From Lutraria lutraria (lineage: Eukaryota > Mollusca > Bivalvia > Venerida > Mactridae), in NCBI GenBank assembly GCA_964023205.1, contig OZ026847.1:7066819-7130818 (forward strand): a DNA stretch of 64,000 nucleotides. The letters are read 5' to 3'. This document shows, in pieces, positions 11,665 to 14,700 of this stretch. Each line of letters begins with the position of its first letter. Positions within the stretch are counted from its first letter, which is position 1. The translations under genes and the position numbers were made by a program. The notes beneath the pieces are model-generated. The model did no database searches, was not told the origin of the DNA, and saw only the letters and a program-made list of their open reading frames with translations.

Positions 11665-11786
11665 TTACTGCATACAGCATCCTTCATCTTTCTTCTGTGG
11701 TTGTGTTGAAGGTCTTGATGTATGCTGGGCTGATTCACTTCTTGGTGATTGTATTCTTATGTTACTGGACGTACTGGGCACAGTAC
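11665..11786 (-). CDS. PARP12-like: PARP gene copy 1, exon 8: C-terminus with CaaX box
   Basis: 122 coding nt; acceptor atatttgtacag at 11787, TAA at 11667-11665. Phase 1 fits the catalytic exon. It codes 39 residues after a split glycine; the Ser/Pro/Gln-rich tail ends in PQKKDEGCCMQ. The last four residues, CCMQ, fit the CaaX consensus, and Q at the last position favours farnesyl transferase. Vertebrate ZAP-L also ends in a farnesylated CaaX box that targets it to endolysosomal membranes. The exon is too short to show as an obvious frame; support is the splice site, phase and the motif at the stop. Confidence 0.75.
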
Positions 11787-14700
11787 CTGTACAAATATGT
11801 ATATTATAATAACAGCCAGTAACAGAATGATAATCAAAAGTATAAATGGATCAACATGAACACAAAATTTTCTAGGTGTTGGTTCATCAACCAAATTCTA
11901 ACTTTATCTTGAATGTTTTGATATTGATAAATTTGTTCAGTCACTAACTCCCTTGTGTGACCTCACACAGGTTACAAATAGATGCTGATAGGGTCAAACC
12001 TACCAAAATACCAATTGATGAAAGAAAACGTTTTATATGTAAAACTTTGGAAGACGAATATCATTTTGTTTTAGAATGTTTAATGTTTAAAAATTTGCAA
12101 ATAACATATGTACCAAAGAAATACTAGAACTGATAAAATATGTCAACATTTCTGGAACTTCTAAATACATATTATTAGAAACCTTGGAATATTTGTTGAA
12201 AAAGCTTTCACTCTTAGAAATACTATTATGTAAACTATATTTATTTTGCAAAAATGATTTTATCACTCAGTAGAATTGTTTTCATGAGAAATCACTCATT
12301 ACTAGTGTCATATGGTAAAAGCTTAAGTTAAATTATTATACGAAACATACATAAGTATGCATAGTTCTTATTTATAACACATATTATATTGACCTTCTCT
12401 GAGTGTGATAAAAATGTTTTCATAATATTATATGAATTGCTCTTGTCTATTTTACTTTCCTTATTATTTATCATTAATTAGTATGATACTTCCTTTGATT
12501 GTACAATCATATCTATATAATTATGTATATAAATGTCAATGTTTGTCAATCTCATATTATGTCTGTTTGTATCCTTGTGGGATGTTTAGCCTTTTTGGAA
12601 ATAAAATGTTTCTCTCTATCATAGCCAAAATAACATTTTACAAACGTCAGAATCAGCCAAAAAGTATTAAGCCAACAGAAATAATCAGTTTTAATCCTTC
12701 TATTTTAAATCTGTTCTAATTTCAAAAGTTTAAAGCATTCTTCTTCCTCATGCAAGCAGCAAGCACAAACAAGAGGACCATGATAGCCCTGTAATTGCTC
12801 TAGATTTTAGTCTGATATAATTCAAAATGTTTCAACTACTAATATATGTAAAACTACAAACATTAGTCATGGAAGAATTCATGCTGATTCTCTGACAGCT
12901 ACCCAAGATTCAACTTCAGTAACATTGTATACTAACTGCAACAAGAGCTCCGCGGTCGGAGACATATGCCCCCAAAACAGGGCCTTGACACAGTTATCGC
13001 TCAAACGATTTTCACACTCCATGACACAGTGTCCTTGACCTTTGTCCTAGTGACCCCAACGGGGGTCATCTACTGTCCAAGGCCAATGCACCTGCAAAGT
13101 ATCAGGCCCATCGGTCAATCCGTTGACGAGATATCGATTGGAAATGATTTTCACACTCCATGTCACAGTGACCTTGACCTTTGACCTAGCGACTCCAGTT
13201 TCAATAGGGGTCACTTAGTGTCCAAGGTCAATGCACCTGCAAAGTATCAGGCCCATCGGTCAATCCCTTGACGAGTTATCAATGGCAAAAGATTTTCACA
13301 CTCCATGTCACAGTGACCTTGATCTTTGACCTAGTGACCCCAGTTTCAATAGGGGTCACCTAGTGTCCAAGGCCAATGCACCTGCAAAGTATCAGGCCCA
13401 TCGGTCAGTCCGTTTACGAGTTATCGATCGGAAACGATTTTCACACTCCATGTTACAGTGACCTTGACCTTTGACCTAGTGACCCCAGTTGCAATAGGGG
13501 TCACCTAGTGTCCAAGGCCAATGCACCTGCAAAGTATCAGGCCCATCGGTCAATCCGTTGACGAGTTATCGATCGGAAACGATTTTCACACTCCATGTCA
13601 CAGTGACCTTGACCTTTGACTTAGTGACCCCAATTTCAATAGGGGTCATCTACTGTCCAAGGCCAATGTACCTGTGAAGTATCAGGCCTAACGATCAATC
13701 CGTTGACGAGTTATCGATTGGAAACTAACTGGTCTACGGATGGACAGACGGACAGACAGACAGACAGACCGACAGGCTAGCAAAACAATATATCCCCTCT
13801 TCTTCAAAGGGGGGCATAATAATATACACAGACTTACCTGTAGAAGATGTAGCTCTCACAGTTTGATTAACAGCTGACGTTGGGTCAGATGATGATGAAC
13901 TCATCCTGGTTCTATTCTGAGCAGCTTGACTTGGAATAGGAGGAGAATGTGTTGCTGATGAAAATGAGCTCACATTGGTTCTATTCTGAGCAGCTTGACT
14001 TGGAATAGGAGGAGAATGTGTTGCTGATGAAAATGAGCTCACATTGGTTCTATTCTGAGCAGCTTGACTTGGAAGAGGAGAGGAATATGTTGCTGATGAG
14101 GCACTATCAGTTAAATCTTGATACTGTATCAAATAATCAGGGTAATACTGATTCTTATCAAATACAACAAATATTTTTGGATTATCAACACTGTTCACAC
14201 ACGAGTCATAAAGTTCATGCTGACTTCCAGGTAATTGTGGGGGACGACGAATGGATTTATTTCCTTCAGTGAACTGACCAACCAAAACACTTGCAAGAAA
14301 CATGAGACGTTTTGGTGGTTGTGTGTAATTATGACTGTATTTGGCGTCCCGAGCAAAGTATGCCCCATCTCCATACACTGTACCATGTGTGCCAGAAACA
14401 CGCATGTCGAAATTGTTAATACTGATACCTCTGACAGCATCATAGTTTGTTGTACCATGGAATAATAGTCTCTTGTCAACCGAAATATTTTTTCCAACAC
14501 GCTGGTAATTGCTCTGCATATACTCTTCCTGGCTGAAATTAGGAGAAAAAGGTCATAATGACTCTATTTCACTCTAAACAATTTTATATGTCAATGCACT
14601 CAATGGGCTTCAAAATAAAATTGCATTACTCTATAACATGCTTTACACTGAATACACACATAGATGTTTCTACATAGGCAGACACACACACATAGATGTT

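Follow-up and report, generated by a model that had tools for sequence, protein, structure and literature searches.

A clam gene of the PARP12/ZAP family ends in a CaaX box that is probably an old feature of the family

One known relative that carries a C-terminal lipid anchor is ZAP-L (PARP13, ZC3HAV1), which combines CCCH fingers, a WWE domain and a PARP domain with a farnesylated CaaX box, CVIS. According to the accessible part of the source (PMC8568172), this box is crucial for ZAP-L and needed for its full antiviral activity, and human PARP12 lacks the motif. In the portions available of two further papers, ZAP is taken as having emerged in tetrapods (PMC9888277), and the family is traced to cnidarians and molluscs (PMC8102003). 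A 2025 study, likewise accessible in part, reports CAAX in a few amphibian ZAPs and in all mammalian, reptile and bird ZAPs, and places its gain in an early tetrapod (PMC12204182). Among the titles and abstract openings listed by searches of the open-licence literature, none mentioned a CaaX box for PARP12-like proteins from fish or invertebrates.

The gene described here lies in a window of 64,000 nucleotides (the whole stretch of DNA analysed) from the bivalve Lutraria lutraria. Its product resembles ZAP-L in having CCCH fingers, WWE, PARP and a terminal CaaX box, farnesylation of the clam box being only predicted. It resembles human PARP12 in architecture and in its ART histidine and tyrosine, and PARP12 is its best match in the PDB; unlike PARP12, it has the box. 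We favour, with a probability of about 0.7, the reading that the gene encodes a farnesyl-anchored mono-ART of the PARP12/ZAP family, and that this family has had the box for a long time, ZAP keeping it and the amniote PARP12 lineage being without it. A spliced model of eight minus-strand exons, with all introns GT-AG and consistent phases, yields 1,869 residues, its 5' end being uncertain. The exons, the box and a neighbouring paralogue are as follows:

29174-28751, minus strand: upstream exon with MPRNQQ repeats (spliced model)
24384-20851, minus strand: large exon with RG-rich repeats and tandem CCCH fingers (spliced model, PDB and Pfam matches)
20337-20138, minus strand: exon carrying one more CCCH-like finger, the fifth, and the first part of a WWE-like stretch (read by eye, not separately scored by Pfam)
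17909-17694, minus strand: WWE exon, first half (spliced model, Pfam)
17178-16982, minus strand: WWE exon, second half (spliced model, Pfam)
16313-16092, minus strand: exon in which the PARP domain begins (spliced model, PDB match)
14532-13838, minus strand: main catalytic exon with the FHGTT histidine, the GDGAY tyrosine and YPDYLIQY, followed by a linker rich in Ser, Pro and Gln that contains a repeated unit
11786-11665, minus strand: terminal coding exon, 122 nt, phase 1, ending KKDEGCCMQ-stop (splice and frame reading)
11679-11668, minus strand: CaaX box C-C-M-Q, at residues 1866-1869 when the model is spliced (sequence)
11667-11665, minus strand: stop codon of the terminal exon (sequence)
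63361-59538, minus strand: tandem paralogue, two PARP exons (63361-63140 and 60163-59538) with the same donor phase, its 5' part outside the window

The domains were observed directly. The Pfam scan covered a stretch of 680 residues from the fingers to the PARP domain, with E up to 0.001, and detected PARP (PF00644, 1.7e-25), zf-CCCH_PARP12 (PF25261, 3.6e-13) and a single stretch of WWE (PF02825, 2.8e-10), the first WWE-like half being unscored. Unlike ZAP, whose HTH_53 domain we take to be PF18606, this stretch gave no HTH_53 match at the same threshold. Against the PDB, the PARP domain matched PARP12 best (2.6e-46), followed by PARP15 (9.2e-27), ZAP (7.2e-26) and PARP14 (1.3e-23), while the CCCH region matched the RNA-binding domains of ZAP (chain 6l1w, 3.1e-13). 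In the aligned columns the ART histidine and tyrosine are present, and Leu-Ile occupies the strand position of the hydrophobic third residue; the clam, its histidine kept, has LLFHGTT at the place where LLFYATS stands in the ZAP chains 4x52 and 2x5y. Fingers, WWE and PARP domain thus argue for membership in the PARP12/ZAP family, and the ART residues point to a PARP12-type mono-ART. In the large exon, an RG-rich unit of roughly 53 residues stands in several copies; RG occurs 34 times in the clam, 46 in Mactra and 43 in Mya, and RGG 16 times in the clam against 0 in Mactra. Past the PARP domain, the linker carries a near-perfect SSFSSATHSPPIPSQAAQNRTNV-like unit about three times.

At its 3' end, the catalytic exon shows the donor TTCTACAG followed by gtaagt, and phase 1 is carried into the terminal exon, which is preceded on its acceptor side by ...atatttgtacag and translates as GTVPSTSSNIRIQSPRSESAQHTSRPSTQPQKKDEGCCMQ-stop. 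Since this exon is in phase and ends KKDEGCCMQ-stop, Cys1866-Cys-Met-Gln was read as a CaaX box. The preliminary description had announced a phase-matched last exon with this ending, joined in frame to the catalytic exon, and a PARP12-type enzyme with a ZAP-L-like CaaX; all of this was found again, with the ART histidine and tyrosine kept and the box in place. Its "good" acceptor was generous, as the site could serve for splicing but is preceded by a tract of intermixed A and T. At the level of sequence we regard the terminal exon and its CaaX ending as confirmed in the clam gene. CCMQ fits the C-a-a-X pattern, with a hydrophobic a2 and an accepted X. Since an X of A, M, S or Q is the one for which farnesylation is predicted (PMC9141697, accessible part), the glutamine of the clam box predicts farnesylation.

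The tandem paralogue shares 77% and 97% protein identity with the studied gene in its two PARP exons, and its linker has one copy fewer of the repeated unit. No CaaX exon for it came up in the region from about 59537 to 29500, which was searched with blastn, with tblastn and for a splice/CaaX pattern; the pattern scan downstream of the paralogue gave 29 matches, of which many repeat the same words and none resembles the real exon. Beside the last exons, tandem repeat copies built around GTCAAGGTCAC words fill two stretches of the minus strand (13734-12900 and 58900-57650).

The closest relative found was a "Poly ADP-ribose polymerase" of Mactra antiquata (P0121), with 55% identity over 99% of the searched region, which is the sister of the clam on the careful tree (support 100/100). 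It ends KKKDEGCNIQ, so that KKDEGC-x-x-Q is common to both while the a1 and a2 residues differ. The tails of the two proteins align end to end with 28% identity (40/145); the E-value of 4e-14 for this one-sequence comparison is overstated, because the tails are of low complexity, no correction for composition was applied and the aligned part takes in the conserved end of the PARP domain. Three scallops (Argopecten, Mizuhopecten and Ylistrum) end KKKDEGCVLQ, and further endings are CSIQ in Mercenaria, Ruditapes and Dreissena and CAIQ in Mya. All 13 of the hand-picked relatives whose tails were set beside that of the clam end in Q. In the clam's own clade, starred on the tree, the box is present in six of the eight rows with the window included, Mercenaria_b and Dreissena_b being without it. 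Box-less rows inside box-bearing clades also include Mya_c and Acropora_b, and one scallop protein (P0142) extends beyond the cysteine.

More widely, 314 relatives were compared, i.e. the matches listed from three homologue searches, two of which gave the best 120 of 1475 and the best 120 of 355. Among these matches listed, cysteine stands at position -4 in 176, a count that is not a frequency in nature, since the set is redundant (isoforms, salmonids) and partly made of such best matches; each of positions -5 to -30 has cysteine in 0 to 7 of the same matches. Within the box, cysteine is raised at -1 (23) and -3 (20) and occurs 0 times at -2 among the 314 listed. Of the 176 listed relatives with Cys at -4, 172 have I, L, V or M as a2; as X, 153 have Q, S, C, A or M, 20 have L or I, and V, G and N occur once each. 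In a few of them the cysteine seems to stand there by chance, as in P0305 and P0314, where CTSI stands seven residues past the PARP domain. The C-termini in the database are mostly predictions.

These endings bear on two doubts about the exon. The first is that the exon was mispredicted and ends in a box by chance. The acceptor is indeed preceded by a weak tract, but Mactra has the same KKDEGC-x-x-Q end and the excess of cysteine at -4 among the matches listed is strong; we consider this reading ruled out for practical purposes. As for the second, the exon might be real but the box confined to a minor isoform or left unprenylated, with the main transcript ending elsewhere, as in ZAP-S versus ZAP-L. 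Read-through of the donor at 13838 yields another ending and several paralogues end otherwise, yet most close relatives keep the box with a hydrophobic a2 and X = Q, which makes this reading improbable.

Taxon counts were taken from 92 rows picked by hand (the window included among the bivalves), and this picking affects them. Among the invertebrates of this set, the box was present in 6/7 cnidarian, 18/25 bivalve, 9/11 gastropod, 4/4 echinoderm and 1/1 hemichordate rows, so that corals and sea stars are among the box-bearing groups. Chordate counts were 1/1 for amphioxus, 11/14 for ray-finned fish, 1/1 for lungfish and 11/11 for tetrapod ZAP. None was seen in the picked rows of amniote PARP12 (5), amphibian PARP12 (3), coelacanth (1), crustaceans (2), chiton (1), annelid (1) and the outgroup (4). 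Tetrapod proteins named ZAP have Cys at -4 in 19 of 22 cases among the matches listed, the exceptions there being P0114 from a bird and P0263 and P0286 from frogs; a protein of the frog Spea named PARP12-like (P0265) has the box. With boxes ending the relatives of so many other animals, a clam novelty was discarded as an explanation.

Several claims of the preliminary description can be adjusted from this. Orthologues without a box, which it had named as evidence that would refute it, are largely absent, given the six of eight starred rows. Its statement that PARP12 lacks the box holds for the PARP12 treated in the accessible part of PMC8568172, and fails for many fish and invertebrate PARP12-like proteins. 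It had further presented the union of an active triad with CaaX as a hybrid. The ART histidine and tyrosine are present in each of the 62 CaaX rows of the tree, and likewise in every other row of the 88; the triad plus CaaX is therefore the usual state among box-bearing relatives. The 11 rows P0233-P0269 (amphibian, lizard and bird, grouped as ZAP) are among those keeping both residues. Since they do, the loss of the histidine seen in the PDB chains of ZAP looks, from these sequences, later than the tetrapod ancestor.

How old the box is was examined on a careful tree of 88 rows. The clam falls outside the ZAP clade, in a mollusc clade (100/100) of 30 rows, 27 of which have the box. The fish CaaX PARP12-like proteins (Salmo CLLQ, Astyanax CIIS) share with the clam the ART histidine and tyrosine and a CaaX after a long low-complexity tail but belong to the vertebrate clade, where ten teleost rows join tetrapod ZAP (90/92). 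A second group of molluscs without CaaX (P0264, P0268, P0287 and P0296) is placed beside echinoderms and apart from the main clade of molluscs (96/85), which may reflect an old duplication or an artefact of the tree. The CaaX state changes 8 times on this tree, compared with a mean of 22.4 and a lowest value of 14 in 500 shufflings. A single gain implies 10 losses on the careful tree, and 8 and 6 on two faster trees (LG+F+G4, fast search; one free, one with both vertebrate clades held).

For the ancestor of ZAP and the teleost group, a two-state model on the careful tree gave the box a probability of 0.94 (0.90 without the outgroup), and on the two further trees, one of them constrained to hold these rows together, the value was 1.0. 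Because of these reconstructions of 0.90-1.0, the box appears to predate the split of ZAP from the teleost group, a result robust on the three trees analysed (one constrained that way). Deeper in the family, the trees part. On the careful tree the family root has the box with a probability of 0.09 (0.21 without the outgroup) and the vertebrate root with 0.0; on the free LG+F+G4 tree the family root reaches 0.90 with 8 losses, and on the one with both vertebrate constraints 1.0 with 6 losses. When loss and gain were made equally likely, the family root took 0.47-0.53 on the two faster trees.

The main alternative is that CaaX arose several times on disordered PARP12-like tails, anchoring being repeatedly useful to antiviral proteins. 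It agrees with the box-less family and vertebrate roots of the careful tree, and with the tails, which are of low complexity and vary in length between 11-14 residues in 9 of the 11 tetrapod ZAP rows (44 and 61 in two songbird rows) and hundreds of residues in the fish. Gains without any loss would have to number 15, however, and the two other trees prefer a family root that has the box; in one of them the gain rate was fitted as zero. Moreover, the data do not reject the 23 box-bearing vertebrate rows forced into one clade (p-AU 0.245), the 12 box-less ones (p-AU 0.317), or both constraints together (LG+F+G4, fast; p-AU 0.318). We therefore regard repeated origin as unlikely, if still the strongest competitor. 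A single origin before the cnidarian/bilaterian split is likely from these sequences, dependent on tree and model. Between "ancestral or convergent", as the preliminary description had put it, inheritance fits better for ZAP and fish, while the deeper single origin depends on the tree. As the box also ends coral, sea star, amphioxus and fish relatives, the membrane anchor of ZAP was probably inherited and not invented in land vertebrates.

Under the favoured reading of an old, inherited box, we infer lipidation, location, activity and antiviral role of the clam enzyme, as well as the deepest origin of its ending. The protein of roughly 1,870 residues would bind RNA with its CCCH fingers and sense ADP-ribose with its WWE region. 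Cys1866 would be farnesylated, Cys-Met-Gln removed and the new end methylated; so modified, the protein would be held at endomembranes by a flexible, disordered tail of about 130 residues (136 from the YPDYLI motif). This tail would bring the RNA-binding fingers and ADP-ribosylation to the membranes where RNA viruses replicate. The common ancestor of ZAP and the CaaX PARP12-like group of teleosts would already have had the box, as would probably the ancestor of cnidarians and bilaterians; ZAP would have kept it, mostly with a short tether, and the amniote PARP12 lineage would be without it.

A side lead concerned CpG recognition. The residues of ZAP in contact with CpG are K89, Y98, K107 and Y108 (PMC8102003, accessible part), and the corresponding positions have K-Y-K-F in both the clam and Ruditapes, and K-Y-K-Y in Mactra. 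As the family often has Lys and Phe at these four columns, the match could be chance, and 0 of 6 aligned amphibian ZAP rows have all four residues. The CpG observed/expected ratio is 0.53 in the window and 0.31 in the coding sequence of the model. The ZAP-like CpG pocket of the clam fingers was kept as a weak lead and was not taken as evidence for CpG sensing.

In its boldest form, which we offer tentatively and at slightly less than even odds, the reading says that the cnidarian-bilaterian ancestor had a farnesyl-anchored, active, RNA-binding PARP12-like enzyme, and that the ZAP system started out in this form. In humans, ZAP would then be the copy with the anchor but no longer with catalysis, and PARP12 the one still catalytic but without its anchor; in clams near Mactra and venerids, with the CpG-poor coding sequence seen here, a ZAP-like pocket may even serve to read CpG. 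Should the box predate early tetrapods, membrane anchoring was not an innovation of ZAP, contrary to what the accessible part of PMC12204182 proposes, and ZAP and amniote PARP12 would have divided between them an inherited enzyme that was both anchored and active. An older box would suggest that membrane-localised ADP-ribosylation has long been part of the antiviral defences of animals.
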